A stretch of 49,117 bases of DNA from Psychroflexus sp. (GTDB lineage Bacteria; Bacteroidota; Bacteroidia; Flavobacteriales; Flavobacteriaceae), in NCBI GenBank assembly GCA_030457805.1, contig JAKDUG010000003.1, positions 1-49,117 of the forward strand, read 5' to 3'. Positions 29,325-34,006 of the stretch are shown here, piece after piece (positions within the stretch are counted from its first letter, which is position 1; each line of letters starts with the position of its first letter). The notes below the pieces were generated by a model. The model was not told the DNA's origin. It did no database searches and was given only the letters and a program-made list of their open reading frames with translations. A program made the position numbers and the translations under genes.

Positions 29325-30599
29325 TTAAAATCTAAATTTCACCCCTGAGAAAACACCAAAATAATACGGCTGAGCGCCCGTTGAATTTGTGCTAAATGTG
29401 TTGACTTGGTATTTGAAATTTGGTTCTACGTTTAAGGACCATTGTTCAGAAAAGTTATAGTCGACACCGAAACCTATGTTTGCGGAAAAACTAGTCTTGT
29501 TGAGGTTTGCTGTTTCTCCGACGTAAGTTGCTGATTTGTCAGTGTGAAAGCTGACTTGATTTTCATTGAGGAATAAAGTACTTGCGCCAGCTGCCACGTG
29601 AAAGCCGATTTTTTTGTCAATAACTTGATATTCAATTTCGAGAGGAACTTCAAGAAAGCCCATATTTTGATTCAGATAACCAACCGAATAATTGAAAGGT
29701 ATATTGCTGTCCGAATTTGCTTTCTGAGCATAATCCACAGGCACAAATTTATGTTTTGCTGTTGAAGAAACACTTTTGATATTTGAAGTCGCATAAGTCG
29801 GTGTGTAAAGCGTTTGTACTATATCATCGGTCATATAGTTCATATTCACCTGGTTCACACCTGTTCTGACACTTAATTTAGGTGTCACTTGATAGGCGAT
29901 TTTGAGACCATAGGCCATGTCAATTTCACTTTTGTGAGACGCATAGCCTTCATTTAAGGTATTTGAGCTGTTAAGTGAACTGGCGTAAATTGGTGCGATT
30001 TGCGGATTGATCATCCACGAATTAAAGCTTTCTGGCTTGCTTTTGATCGTTGACTTTTTGCGAAGTTGTTCTTGATTAAACAAGAGCATTTGTGTTTCAA
30101 AATCGATATCACTCTGTACGATTGAGTGTGAGTTAAAGGCTAAGTTATTAGCTTTGATTATTCTTTGTTTTTCAGTTTGTGTTATTTGGCTTTTTCTTTT
30201 TTCTGTTTTGGTCACTTCAGAATTAATGGTAATAAAAAGTAGGTTTAAATCTTGAGATAGGATAGAAGACGCTTCTGAATGAGATGTTATAAGTTTTTGA
30301 TTTTTATTTATCTCAAAAGAGCTATTTCTGAAATCCTTACTTTCTGAACTATAGAATTCTTTTTGGGTGTCAGAGATTGATTTTGAATCTTGATACAAAG
30401 CTCCTAATCCAAAAATTAAAAGGCCAGCAGTGATAATTGCCGCATATTTGAGAAAGATAAGCAGGGGTGCAAATCTTCTCTTGGGTTGCGAGAGGTGTGA
30501 TTCAATATGTTCCCATGATGATTGTGGAGGCTGGACTTCAAATTCCTTAAAGGCTTCCTGAAAAATACGATCGATATGTTTGTTTGACTTACTCATCAA
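29325..30599 (-). CDS. Inner-membrane-anchored protein with C-terminal beta-barrel-like domain; candidate anti-sigma factor
   Basis: The N-terminal 42 residues are soluble and cytoplasmic-like (HIDRIFQEAFKEFEVQPPQ, then a Trp-containing helix), followed by one transmembrane helix (44-68). A long polar linker and then a region from about 225 to 424 resemble an outer-membrane beta-barrel (alternating aromatic strands, C-terminal KFRF). Its ATG overlaps the ECF sigma factor stop codon by 4 nt, so it is the obvious candidate for a regulator of that sigma factor. A barrel domain tethered to an inner-membrane helix is topologically odd. Function is inferred from context. Confidence 0.7.
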   Translation of the reverse strand: MMSKSNKHIDRIFQEAFKEFEVQPPQSSWEHIESHLSQPKRRFAPLLIFLKYAAIITAGLLIFGLGALYQDSKSISDTQKEFYSSESKDFRNSSFEINKNQKLITSHSEASSILSQDLNLLFITINSEVTKTEKRKSQITQTEKQRIIKANNLAFNSHSIVQSDIDFETQMLLFNQEQLRKKSTIKSKPESFNSWMINPQIAPIYASSLNSSNTLNEGYASHKSEIDMAYGLKIAYQVTPKLSVRTGVNQVNMNYMTDDIVQTLYTPTYATSNIKSVSSTAKHKFVPVDYAQKANSDSNIPFNYSVGYLNQNMGFLEVPLEIEYQVIDKKIGFHVAAGASTLFLNENQVSFHTDKSATYVGETANLNKTSFSANIGFGVDYNFSEQWSLNVEPNFKYQVNTFSTNSTGAQPYYFGVFSGVKFRF

Positions 30600-31138
30600 G
30601 CGTGTTTATCAGAATTAATATTTTGAAGTAATTCAACTTCCTTTCTTAAAATTTGGCGAGCTCTGGAAAGGTTAGATTTAGAGGTGCCAAGGCTGATGTC
30701 CAGTTTATCAGCAACTTCTTGATGTGAATAACCATCTAAAATATAGAGGTTAAATACCATGCGATAACGAGTGGGTAGGTTTTGGATGCAATTCAACAGT
30801 TCATCTAAAGAAAGGTCTTGATCAATGACAACATTCTCTGGCTCATCAGGGATATTGGTGTGGATCAGTTCATAAACTTTTTGTTTTTTGTACTTCTGTA
30901 AGGCAGTATTGATCAAGATGCGTTTCATCCAACCCTCAAAGGAGCCTTGATATTTGTATTGATCAATTTTTTCAAAAATCTTGATAAAAGCATCCTGCAA
31001 ATTATCCTGAGCTTCAGGATAATTGCTGGAGTACTTTAAGACGATACCAAAAAACTTTTGTGCATAGAGATTGTAAAGCTCTTTTTGAGCTTCGATATTA
31101 TTCTTTTGACACTGTTTTATAAGTTTTTTGAGTAGCAT
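30596..31138 (-). CDS. ECF-type RNA polymerase sigma-70 factor
   Basis: The 180-residue protein has sigma region 2 (about 20-90, with DNLQDAFIKIFEKI near the -10-binding helix) and region 4 (about 118-172, with YSHQEVADKLDISLGTSKSNLSRAR as the helix-turn-helix). It has no region 3, as usual for ECF sigma factors. It lies between a lipoprotein gene (6 nt upstream) and the barrel/anti-sigma candidate (4-nt overlap), so the three are one operon. Its target promoters are not evident in this window. Confidence 0.93.
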   Translation of the reverse strand: MLLKKLIKQCQKNNIEAQKELYNLYAQKFFGIVLKYSSNYPEAQDNLQDAFIKIFEKIDQYKYQGSFEGWMKRILINTALQKYKKQKVYELIHTNIPDEPENVVIDQDLSLDELLNCIQNLPTRYRMVFNLYILDGYSHQEVADKLDISLGTSKSNLSRARQILRKEVELLQNINSDKHA

Positions 31139-31144
31139 TTTAAA

Positions 31145-31567
31145 TTATTCATCTTCGTCTATCACAGGGATCACTTTCTTAACAGTGCTGTAAGTGCCGT
31201 CATCATTTCTTTCAGAAACAAAACGGAATTCAATCTCTTCGTGCTTATCAATTGTGTATTCTATACTCTTATCGATAAGCTCTTCCTGTTCATCCAAATC
31301 ACAATCCATGTATTCTTCTGTCAGAATCGCTTTGATGAGAATGTATTTATCGGTTGATTTATCAATCTCAAAAAATGAAAACTCCAAGCACTCATAAGGT
31401 CTCTGGATTTTGACATCAAAGGTATAGGTCTCACCATATACAACTTCTTCAGGCGCTGTTACCTCAGTGATAATTCCCAATTGTGTAATTCCTAAATCCT
31501 CTGTATCGTCACTCAAACAACTTGTTAGAGTGAAAATGATACTGAGTAAAACTAATTTTCTTAACAT
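31145..31567 (-). CDS. Small lipoprotein of unknown function upstream of an ECF sigma factor
   Basis: A signal peptide ends with LTSC, making C17 the lipidated residue. The remaining about 120 residues are acidic and look like a single beta-sandwich domain (a pattern such as GIITEVTAPEEVVYGETYTF recalls carbohydrate-binding or Ig-like folds). No family was recognised. It lies 6 nt upstream of the sigma factor gene, so it may be the surface or periplasmic input to that sigma system, or merely a co-transcribed cargo. Confidence 0.75.
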   Translation of the reverse strand: MLRKLVLLSIIFTLTSCLSDDTEDLGITQLGIITEVTAPEEVVYGETYTFDVKIQRPYECLEFSFFEIDKSTDKYILIKAILTEEYMDCDLDEQEELIDKSIEYTIDKHEEIEFRFVSERNDDGTYSTVKKVIPVIDEDE

Positions 31568-31597
31568 TGACTTTGTTTAAAGGATTATAAATAAACC

Positions 31598-31616
31598 AAA
31601 AGGTTGCGTGCCTTTT
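31598..31616 (-). terminator. Weak recA terminator
   Basis: On the minus strand AAAAGG (31611-31616) and CCTTTT (31598-31603) form a short stem around a 7-nt loop, followed by a T-containing stretch. It lies between the recA stop codon and the lipoprotein gene. Confidence 0.35.
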
Positions 31617-31618
31617 TC

Positions 31619-32641
31619 TTAAGATTCTTCTTTTGAGATCTTTATGGCCTCAAGAATTTTGGTTTCAAGCTCATCCATCAATTCAGGATTATCTTTTAAA
31701 AGTGTTTTAACAGCATCACGACCTTGCCCTAGTTTTGTATCACCGTAGCTAAACCATGATCCAGCTTTCTTAATGATTTCGTAGTCAACACCAATATCGA
31801 TGATTTCACCAACTTTTGAAATACCTTGACCATACATGATATCAAATTCAGCCAATTTAAATGGCGGTGCAATTTTGTTTTTAACGACTTTAACGCGCGT
31901 CTTGTTCCCCAGGACATCGCTATTGCTATTCTTGATTTGAGTTGAACGACGAATGTCTAAACGCACTGATGAGTAGAATTTCAGCGCATTACCACCCGTT
32001 GTTGTTTCTGGGTTACCGAACATCACGCCAATTTTTTCTCGCAATTGGTTGATGAAAATCACTGTACATTTTGTCTTGCTAATAGAAGCCGTCAGTTTTC
32101 GCAATGCTTGTGACATCAATCGCGCGTGTAAGCCCATTTTTGAGTCACCCATTTCACCTTCAATTTCACTTTTTGGTGTCAGTGCAGCGACTGAATCGAC
32201 CACGACAATATCAATAGCACCGGAGCGGATCAGGTTGTCAGCAATTTCTAAGGCTTGCTCTCCGTGATCTGGTTGAGACATAATTAAATCATCTATATCG
32301 ACTCCTAATTTCCCCGCATATGTGCGGTCAAAAGCATGTTCTGCATCAATAAAGGCAGCAATACCTCCAGCCTTTTGAGCTTCAGCAATAGCGTGCAATG
32401 TCAAGGTTGTTTTACCTGATGATTCAGGTCCGAAGATCTCAATAACACGTCCACGCGGATAGCCGCCTACACCTAAGGCCAAATCTAAACCTAATGATCC
32501 TGATGAGATAGCATCAACATCTTCTACAGCTTGGTCACTCATTTTCATGACAGTTCCCTTGCCGTAAGTCTTATCTAATTTATCTAAGGTTAACTTTAGA
32601 GCCTTTAATTTAGCCTCTTTTTCGTTGTTCTCTTTTGCCAT
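31619..32641 (-). CDS. recA: Recombinase RecA
   Basis: RecA is the DNA strand-exchange ATPase. The Walker A motif is GPESSGKTT (71-79), and the usual DNA-binding loops and [16 protein letters not shown] follow (about 145-160). The length of 340 residues is normal. A TATTTTTA -7-like element lies 17 nt upstream; no LexA-type operator was recognised. Its regulator recX is elsewhere (14849-15328). The divergent side carries the structured element described at 32701-32890. Confidence 0.98.
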
Positions 32642-32658
32642 AATTCTTTCTTTTGATG

Positions 32659-32666
32659 TAAAAATA
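32659..32666 (-). promoter_or_regulatory. Possible recA promoter -7 element (TATTTTTA)
   Basis: Minus-strand TATTTTTA differs from TAnnTTTG at the last base; it is 17 nt upstream of the recA ATG. Confidence 0.35.
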
Positions 32667-32700
32667 CTATTTATATCAATAATAGATTATTTTAACGCAA

Positions 32701-32890
32701 CCATTTTGGAGTTATGGCATCTTAAGGGCGAGTAAAGTTGTGACCTCTAAAGCTAAGCTCCATCAGAGAACCAAGTAGGGCTTGGTAGACGCCAGGCTAG
32801 TTTTTGAAATACAAAAAACTATGCAAGATTATGTTATTTTTCAATAACGAATTAGCCACTAGAAAAAGTCCTGGCAATCAGGACTTTTTT
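32701..32890 (+). ncRNA. Candidate structured RNA between recA and trhO
   Basis: In the 321-nt recA-trhO gap, bases 32707-32800 are about 49% GC, far above the surrounding AT-rich spacers, and are not coding in any frame I checked. TGGCATCT (32715-32722) can pair with AGACGCCA (32787-32794) with one mismatch, enclosing a perfect hairpin CCAAG/CTTGG (32771-32775 and 32781-32785). A further hairpin of TAGTTTTTG and CAAAAAACTA follows (about 32798-32822), and a strong terminator ends the block at 32889. No known RNA family was recognised; it does not show tmRNA, SRP, RNase P or SAM-type signatures. Transcription on the plus strand is assumed from the terminator. Confidence 0.45.
32863..32890. 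terminator. Strong terminator upstream of trhO
   Basis: AAAAAGTCCTG (32863-32873) and CAGGACTTTTT (32879-32889) form a perfect 11-bp stem with a 5-nt loop and a T run on either strand. No recognised protein gene lies immediately upstream of it on the plus strand, which supports a non-coding transcript ending here. Confidence 0.88.
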
Positions 32891-32909
32891 CATTTCTACA
32901 CTTTATGCT

Positions 32910-32917
32910 TATATTTG
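32910..32917 (+). promoter_or_regulatory. trhO promoter -7 element (TATATTTG)
   Basis: TATATTTG followed by C, an exact Bacteroidota -7 sequence, is 45 nt upstream of the trhO ATG and downstream of the terminator, so trhO has its own promoter. Confidence 0.65.
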
Positions 32918-32962
32918 CAACCAATTAATAAGCTTCTTTTTAACTTTTAAAATTAGTATAGC

Positions 32963-34006
32963 ATGCAACTGTACAATAAACTAAGTGCCAAAGAAAGGGA
33001 ATCACTTCTTGATGAAGCAGGCGAAGAACGCTTGACGCTTTCCTTTTACAATTATGCGAAGATTGGCAATCCGCAGCTTTTTAGAAATCACCTTTTTGTC
33101 GCTTGGGACGCTCTCGATGTGTTGGGTAGGATTTACGTTGCTCATGAAGGCATCAATGCTCAACTCTCTGTTCCTGCAAAAAAGTTTGAAAAATTTAAAA
33201 GCTTCCTAGATAACATTTATTTCCTAGAAAATGTCAGACTCAATATCGCTATTGAGCAAGATGACAAATCCTTCCTGAAACTCAAGGTGAAAGTCCGTCT
33301 GAAAATCGTGGCTGATGGCCTAAATGACGCTACTTTTGATGTCAGGGATAAAGGCGTACATGTCGATGCTGATCGCTTTAATGAATTGATCGAAGATCCA
33401 AACACGGTTTTGGTGGATATGCGAAATCACTATGAAAGTGAAATTGGTCATTTTAAAAATGCTGTCACGCCAGATGTAGATACCTTTAGAGATTCATTAG
33501 ATATCATCGAAGCAAACCTTAGTGAGCATAAAGAAGACAAAAAATTAGTAATGTATTGCACCGGTGGGATACGTTGTGAAAAGGCGAGTGCATATTATAA
33601 ACACAAAGGTTTTAAAAATGTTTACCAACTTGAAGGTGGCATTATCGAATATGCGCGACAAATTGAAAATAAAGGTTTAGAGAATAAGTTTTTGGGTAAA
33701 AATTTTGTTTTTGACCACCGCCGTAGTGAGCTCATTTCAAATGAAGTTATCGCCCATTGTCATCAATGTGGTGAACCTTGTGATACGCATACAAATTGTG
33801 CAAATGATGCCTGTCATTTACTTTTCATTCAGTGTAAAAACTGTCAGGAAAAAATGGAAAACTGTTGCTCTGAAACTTGTCAGGAGGTTATTCAGTTGCC
33901 TTATGAGGAACAAAAACGACTGCGTGCAGGTCAGGGAAATAGCAATAAAATTTTCAAGAAAGGGCGTTCATCTGTTCTTAAGTACAAGACGATGTCTTCT
34001 GTGTAG
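32963..34006 (+). CDS. trhO: tRNA uridine-34 hydroxylase TrhO (YceA/UPF0176 rhodanese)
   Basis: TrhO hydroxylates wobble uridine U34 in tRNAs. The N-terminal acylphosphatase-like domain (about 1-115) is followed by a rhodanese domain with the active-site loop CTGGIRCEKA (199-208), C199 being catalytic. The C-terminal part carries a cysteine cluster (266, 269, 273, 279, 284, 291, 294, 301, 302, 306) that probably binds metal. The length of 347 residues matches. It converges with rmlD. Confidence 0.92.
   Translation: MQLYNKLSAKERESLLDEAGEERLTLSFYNYAKIGNPQLFRNHLFVAWDALDVLGRIYVAHEGINAQLSVPAKKFEKFKSFLDNIYFLENVRLNIAIEQDDKSFLKLKVKVRLKIVADGLNDATFDVRDKGVHVDADRFNELIEDPNTVLVDMRNHYESEIGHFKNAVTPDVDTFRDSLDIIEANLSEHKEDKKLVMYCTGGIRCEKASAYYKHKGFKNVYQLEGGIIEYARQIENKGLENKFLGKNFVFDHRRSELISNEVIAHCHQCGEPCDTHTNCANDACHLLFIQCKNCQEKMENCCSETCQEVIQLPYEEQKRLRAGQGNSNKIFKKGRSSVLKYKTMSSV

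Follow-up and report, generated by a model that had tools for sequence, protein, structure and literature searches.

The window analysed here is a stretch of 49,117 nucleotides from Psychroflexus sp. in which recA and trhO are transcribed divergently. In the spacer between them we propose a small transcription unit on the plus strand; its parts and the neighbouring genes are collected in Table 1. The initial annotation had described this spacer as a GC-rich, hairpin-rich element with its own terminator, and had suggested that it might be a free small RNA, a recA leader read on the other strand, or a decayed mobile element. The observation was confirmed in part, and the interpretation found partial support.

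Table 1. Features of the recA-trhO spacer and its surroundings, with coordinates in the window.
Feature	Position	Strand	Basis
Putative anti-sigma protein, C-terminal outer-membrane beta-barrel domain	29325..30599	-	PF13568 over cut-off
ECF sigma factor, candidate regulator of the transcript	30596..31138	-	PF04542/PF08281, TIGR02937 over cut-off
Putative lipoprotein, first gene of the ECF operon	31145..31567	-	ORF; lipoprotein by eye
Degenerate counterpart of a second ECF promoter, CGCAACC-N15-AATCCT	31581..31608	-	Sequence; intact motif not in window
recA, divergent neighbour	31619..32641	-	TIGR02012 over cut-off
ECF-sigma-type promoter, ACGCAACC-N15-CATCTT	32695-32723	+	Motif comparison across recA loci
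-35 element, ACGCAACC	32695..32702	+	GCAACC-N14/15-YRTCT at the same place in 114/154 recA loci
-10 element, GCATCTT (CATCTT = 32718-32723)	32717..32723	+	Consensus GCATCTA in 114 loci
Predicted small transcript, ~160 nt	32730..32890	+	Promoter and terminator; start inferred from the -10 box
GC-rich variable 5' segment	32726..32775	+	60-64% identity to the three nearest relatives
3' domain	32773..32890	+	Weak, but best in-window match to covariance model R1
GGCTAG...TTAGCC helix ends enclosing two small hairpins	32795..32857	+	Alignments, fold
Small hairpins	32798-32805/32814-32821; 32833-32838/32843-32848	+	Alignments, fold
Conserved AATAACGAATTAGCC	32843-32857	+	Alignments
Intrinsic terminator	32863..32890	+	12-pair stem in folds
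Sigma-A type -7 box TATATTTG, trhO's own promoter	32910..32917	+	Sequence; TAnnTTTG in relatives
trhO (tRNA U34 hydroxylase), outside the transcript	32963..34006	+	NCBIfam NF001133 over cut-off

The reported composition of the element, 46 G/C among the 94 bases at 32707-32800, is exact, and the spacers on either side contain 18.5% (32642-32706) and 23.6% (32891-32962) GC. This contrast had been taken as the mark of a functional part, a view that did not hold, for the GC-rich segment is the one that varies most in the window's clade. Relatives have a peptide ORF in the equivalent part of the transcript. The CCAAG/CTTGG hairpin is present (32771-32775/32781-32785), and so are the arms TGGCATCT and AGACGCCA (32715-32722/32787-32794); these had been thought to close a domain of the RNA, but TGGCATCT overlaps the -10 element (GCATCT) and should therefore sit upstream of the transcript, where it cannot close an RNA domain. 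The terminator said to end the block was recovered as a stem in folds; it is absent from the list of a mechanical scan, which has 32779-32798 instead. Folding, one of the checks that had been suggested, gave a significant result for the predicted RNA when the terminator was included (z -3.15, 1/200 shuffles as good). Since 32730-32861, which lacks the terminator, folds no better than shuffled sequence (z -0.99, 40/200 as good), the significance of the whole rests on the terminator. The minus strand folds about equally well (z -2.77).

Alignment with other flavobacteria, also suggested in the initial annotation, placed the unit at the same position with promoter and terminator conserved and, in ORF-bearing relatives, a covarying hairpin. 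We compared 154 recA loci, 26 from Psychroflexus and 128 from other Flavobacteriaceae; the latter come from the top of a list in which 219 genomes were ordered by how similar their RecA is to that of the window (28 + 100), a few listed loci near contig ends being left out, and the set is not a random sample of the family. The motif GCAACC-N14/15-YRTCT occurs on the divergent strand beside recA at 114 of these loci, compared with 0 on the opposite strand, 0 for the reversed pattern and 0 in 20 rounds of shuffling, and is missing there from the other 40. Its consensus over the 114 loci is ACGCAACCTTTTT-N10-GCATCTA, and the window's own copy fits the motif and thereby the pattern of an ECF-type promoter. 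A terminator-like stem was found in 109 of the 114 promoter-bearing loci (5-10/114 after shuffling) by a home-made stem search which may take an earlier stem in some loci, and in silico this delimits a discrete transcript ending at an intrinsic terminator.

Between this stem and trhO the sequence TAnnTTTG, given as a sigma-A box in a transcriptome report (PMC9723704), is present in 82 of the 84 loci where such a stem is followed by trhO; after shuffling, the mean was 11.2 and the maximum 21. The initial annotation was right in giving trhO a separate promoter box after the terminator, TATATTTG in the window. A trhO start lies downstream in 111/154 loci. In 14 of the 20 element-bearing Psychroflexus loci none was found in the stretch read, and at one Psychroflexus locus (L036) a SAM riboswitch (RF00162) follows the element in place of the trhO start; the unit therefore persists beside a different neighbour.

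A genome-wide DNA search gave the element as a single match in its own genome, and neither the multiple copies nor the varying positions of a mobile element were seen. A DNA search of 100 relatives matched 47 at E<=0.1; long matches were restricted to G003, G022 and G019, all to the 3' half of the element, and most of the remaining short ones look like chance. We recovered recA from 26 of 27 genomes of the genus, counting the window's own, and read the DNA upstream of it. A homologous unit, with the same promoter-like motif, AATTAG-type block and kind of terminator, is present at 20 of these 26 loci and was not found at six, one of which (L046) is cut by a contig end. Identity between the window and its three nearest relatives rises along the element, from 60-64% (32726-32775) through 64-72% (32776-32800) to 82-88% (32801-32860), and is 76-82% in the promoter stretch and 83-90% in the terminator. 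The flanks are also well kept in these relatives (recA-side spacer 92-98%, trhO leader 74-81%), so the 3' segment is conserved yet not exceptional.

An ORF of about 30 codons with the consensus MKFxxKxxxxNxLGxSVxVxxNxxCKADGG was found in 56 of the 114 promoter-bearing loci by a strict criterion. This demanded a D-[G/A]-G end and left a false ORF (L135) out of the count; the conservation of DGG is therefore by construction and, since ORFs with other ends (e.g. L128, L140, L170) are missed, 56/114 is a lower bound. At L057 the ORF is present and the strict promoter spacing was missed. Within Psychroflexus the ORF is found in 16 of the 20 element-bearing loci, where it ends at the 5' arm of a hairpin with the stop codon inside. 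In this genus it looks coding from its pattern of change, with a synonymous fraction of 0.523, where column shuffles give 0.186 (sd 0.044), and with 544, 195 and 193 differences at third, first and second positions. The synonymous excess outside Psychroflexus is weak (0.250 vs 0.179, sd 0.038, shuffle maximum 0.285). The ORF was not found in the window or in its three nearest relatives, and a peptide profile search of the window's own genome gave no hit; the short ORF of a dual-function RNA is thus lacking here.

The peptide is basic and, in its middle part, moderately hydrophobic, and no NCBIfam or Pfam family was found for the four peptides tried. At E<1e-6, profile A4 (28 rows) had a single hit in each of 63 genomes among the 299 searched in the family, and at E<=0.01 it had hits in 71. 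In all 42 genomes with a listed recA position the hit lies 113-399 bases from recA; 27 of these 42 genomes supplied rows to A4 and 15 none. When 295 genomes of the class were searched, the top A4 hit outside the family (E 4.8e-4) was in a long open frame. We rejected a general reading of the peptide as a lipoprotein (Cys, then Lys-x-Asp), as the residues before the Cys, which the lipobox rule constrains, rarely fit. The Cys directly before K/R is itself missing in L107, L108, L119, L123 and L196, while L054, L056 and L057 differ altogether.

The hairpin that starts at the GG-stop covaries. Its own arms pair at -12.40 kcal/mol, compared with -9.99 (sd 0.25) for swapped arms (0/5000 permutations), in a test of 53 distinct arm pairs in which shared ancestry remains in the permutation; with a single Psychroflexus (41 pairs) the result was the same. 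Compensating changes include ATCCG/CGGAT, ATTCG/CGAAT and CTCG/CGAG. In several lineages the ORF appears, by eye, to be decaying or deleted, and outside Psychroflexus 54 of 95 promoter-bearing loci are without it by our criterion, 50 of these 54 keeping a terminator-like stem. ORF-less loci such as L187, L210, L126 and similar ones seem, by eye, to specify a short RNA that contains a GCTATGAAA module as well as a GACTAACTCGAACT-like stretch left unpaired; the latter corresponds to the 5' strand of the hairpin of ORF-bearing relatives and is a possible seed sequence. By eye we also considered whether the 5' GCTATG module might pair with the region of the trhO start.

A covariance model, R1, was built from the 16 ORF-bearing congeners. 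At E<=0.01 it had hits in 35 of 397 family genomes, many of them weak. Of the seven loci inspected outside the genus (L079-L085), L084 lies elsewhere; the other six are placed between recA and trhO and have a related ORF, and the promoter was seen in five of them. The genome-wide search at this threshold did not find the window's element; when R1 was run on the window alone, the 3' domain of the element was the best hit (26.7 bits, E 0.007), the next, elsewhere, scoring 22.8 bits. The initial annotation had recognised no known RNA family, and the Rfam covariance search likewise had no match at the element. Rfam 15 (4227 models, 6S-Flavo included, and presumably Flavo-1) gave 0 matches in the window at the gathering cut-off. 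In 20 relatives nothing was found at the element, the single hit being the downstream SAM riboswitch, and the sub-threshold hits at the element in a permissive search look like chance. An identity with 6S RNA was rejected: the 6S-Flavo of this genome is located elsewhere (G000:C23, 86.3 bits), and the element has no match to RF01685.

On the other side of recA lies an operon for an ECF sigma factor, our candidate regulator of the transcript. The product of its first gene has no Pfam or NCBIfam family, and the protein at 29325-30599 is assigned a putative anti-sigma role from its position. The beta-barrel (PF13568) of this putative anti-sigma protein might make it a direct sensor of the state of the outer membrane. 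In 100 loci with 2.5 kb of sequence downstream of recA, an ECF sigma homologue is found on the same strand in 99, the motif ahead of that gene in 98 and a homologue of the anti-sigma protein in 97. At 143 of 154 loci the same motif directly follows recA (controls 0, 0 and mean 0.1). In relatives, therefore, the unit and the sigma gene share a promoter motif, as expected under autoregulation, and the operon copy in the window is degenerate, which suggests that regulation may have changed here. The CGCAACC after the window's recA was rejected as an ECF promoter and not counted for the window, being degenerate and overlapping the apparent recA terminator; by eye, the loop of that terminator hairpin contains CGCAACC (31602-31608, minus strand) and so overlaps the promoter counterpart. 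ECF factors typically transcribe their own operon, and since the motif precedes the ECF operon it is most likely the promoter of the recA-linked ECF. Its presence on both flanks of recA, and ahead of the ECF gene, would most likely place the unit in an autoregulated, recA-linked ECF regulon.

The strict motif has 32 sites in 12 whole genomes, 0-5 per genome, compared with 3 for the reversed control. It is on both recA flanks in eight of the genomes, on one flank in three, and on neither in G019, a congener from the window's clade which has no strict-motif site and whose recA-upstream site fits the broader form only. Twelve sites lie away from recA and 11 of them were read by eye: four precede an ORF for a 28-residue membrane micro-protein, three a lipoprotein-like gene, two a surface-protein-like gene and one an OMP-like gene, and one is inside an ORF. 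At L261, L263, L276 and L280, which represent four genera, the same ECF promoter is followed by the 28-residue, highly hydrophobic micro-protein ORF, e.g. MKILVIIAILIIVNLILLAFSVNKKTEP. At L286 and L289, from two genera, the strict promoter stands ahead of a large gene, surface-protein-like by eye, that adjoins rsmI. A looser motif has 7 sites in the window's own genome vs 1 in the control. These include the element, an ECF gene (L070) and L074, a 59-residue relative of the micro-protein; at least three of the seven (L071-L073) are inside open reading frames and are probably due to chance. L070 (G000:C87:11564-11591) is a second ECF sigma gene with a GCAACC-N16-CGTCTT promoter, and because of this similarity the two ECF factors may share promoter specificity and the cognate sigma of the unit is a presumed one.

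We propose that the element specifies a small, self-terminated transcript, made from an ECF promoter, that belongs to the recA-linked ECF regulon and here most likely acts as a regulatory RNA. As a combined statement we think this probable. The comparison of loci gives good support to the transcription unit and to its link with an ECF-type promoter, and both are very probably correct; that the unit acts as a regulatory RNA is more tentative, and we place it a little below an even chance. The ECF sigma encoded across recA would recognise both promoters and drive its own operon together with the small transcript, forming a small autoregulated regulon. For about half of the relatives that were examined and have the promoter, the product would be a two-in-one RNA, with an ORF of ~30 codons that ends inside a hairpin and with the terminator after this hairpin. 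The window's clade has lost the ORF and kept promoter, 3' domain and terminator, and because these remain the window copy, if transcribed in this organism, would most likely act in trans as a regulatory RNA, much as the sigma-E sRNAs do. Among the three identities first offered, a free sRNA is thus the best supported, by its own promoter, its own terminator and a position conserved across many Flavobacteriaceae.

The peptide could instead be the product. The transcript would then be a small mRNA, of which the window holds a decayed remnant, still transcribed and functionless. We regard this as somewhat unlikely, and the comparison supplies arguments in both directions. In Psychroflexus the ORF looks coding, third positions changing most; it is single-copy beside recA (63/299 genomes; 42/42 checkable), promoters of this type also stand ahead of other micro-protein ORFs (28 residues), and by eye the peptide ORF has decayed or been deleted in several lineages. 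However, promoter and terminator outlast the ORF in ORF-less lineages (50/54 keep the stem), the window's clade preserves the 3' part better than the ORF-equivalent part, the hairpin covaries, and the synonymous signal is weak outside Psychroflexus. The order of ORF, hairpin at the stop codon and terminator would also suit a leader-peptide attenuator for trhO, which starts downstream in 111/154 loci. We consider such control very unlikely. A separate promoter box for trhO follows the terminator in 82/84 loci, no trhO start was found in 14/20 element-bearing Psychroflexus loci, and inspection by eye revealed no antiterminator pairing with the terminator.

The two remaining identities offered in the initial annotation fared poorly. 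An origin as a decayed mobile element, or as a GC-rich spacer arisen by chance, would account for the GC contrast and the poor conservation of the GC-rich half, but is hardly compatible with a single match in the genome, the same fixed place in relatives and a conserved promoter and terminator, and we give it almost no weight. That the element lies in the 5' intergenic region of recA, with a minus strand that folds about as well, might point to an opposite-strand leader that regulates recA in cis; against this, the promoter motif is on the plus strand only (0/154 opposite), the T-run of the terminator also reads plus, and recA is transcribed the other way, which makes such a leader extremely improbable.

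The regulatory RNA that we prefer can be placed in a larger scheme, which we judge unlikely in its entirety: an undescribed ECF regulon around recA in Flavobacteriaceae, with a sigma operon, a hairpin-switched dual-function RNA, an envelope peptide and, in ORF-less lineages, a constitutive RNA. The commonest regulon members would be the sigma operon and the dual-function RNA. On reaching the stop codon within the hairpin, translation would open this structure or keep it occupied, which would switch the activity of the RNA, and the peptide would act at the envelope alongside the 28-residue membrane micro-proteins of the same regulon. In lineages like that of the window the peptide would have been lost, leaving an RNA that is constitutively active. 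Little is known in Bacteroidota of regulatory RNAs or of the stress responses controlled by ECF factors. If our proposal is correct, Flavobacteriaceae would possess a conserved, genetically testable, sigma-E-like RNA module at an easily recognised place beside recA, as well as a conserved micro-protein that routine annotation may miss, and the ORF-less lineages would represent a natural experiment that parts RNA function from peptide function.

RybB, MicA and MicL are sigma-E dependent sRNAs of enterobacteria. The element is like them in being a short, terminator-ended (predicted) transcript from an ECF-type promoter and, as in the sigma-E regulon, other sites of its promoter precede genes which by eye are of envelope type (lipoprotein-like, OMP-like and micro-protein genes). 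It differs in phylum and sequence, in its location beside recA, and in having relatives with a conserved ORF that ends in a hairpin. SgrS/SgrT is a dual-function RNA and offers a second parallel, that of a small RNA unit with, in relatives, a short ORF which can be missing while the unit stays; in the element's relatives, unlike SgrS/SgrT, the stop codon lies inside a conserved hairpin. 6S-Flavo RNA (RF01685) is, as is predicted for the element, a small RNA of Flavobacteriia, and the two sequences do not match.

No description of the element, its peptide or its setting was found in the open-licence PMC literature. YceA, which we take to be TrhO, provides a point of comparison with Flavobacterium psychrophilum, a member of the same bacterial family. 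The transcriptome of that species includes an ECF-type motif, SM6, and 85 new RNAs, one sRNA (Rfp11) being SM6-driven (PMC9723704). The main text of that report makes no mention of recA, and no peptide was seen described there (PMC9723704). The -10 of SM6 is described as a CGT box, where the motif of the element has CATC (PMC9723704). A mapped SM6 start at 49622 is located upstream of YceA (PMC9723704, Table 2C), and this start, or one of the Rfp RNAs, may be the same as the element.
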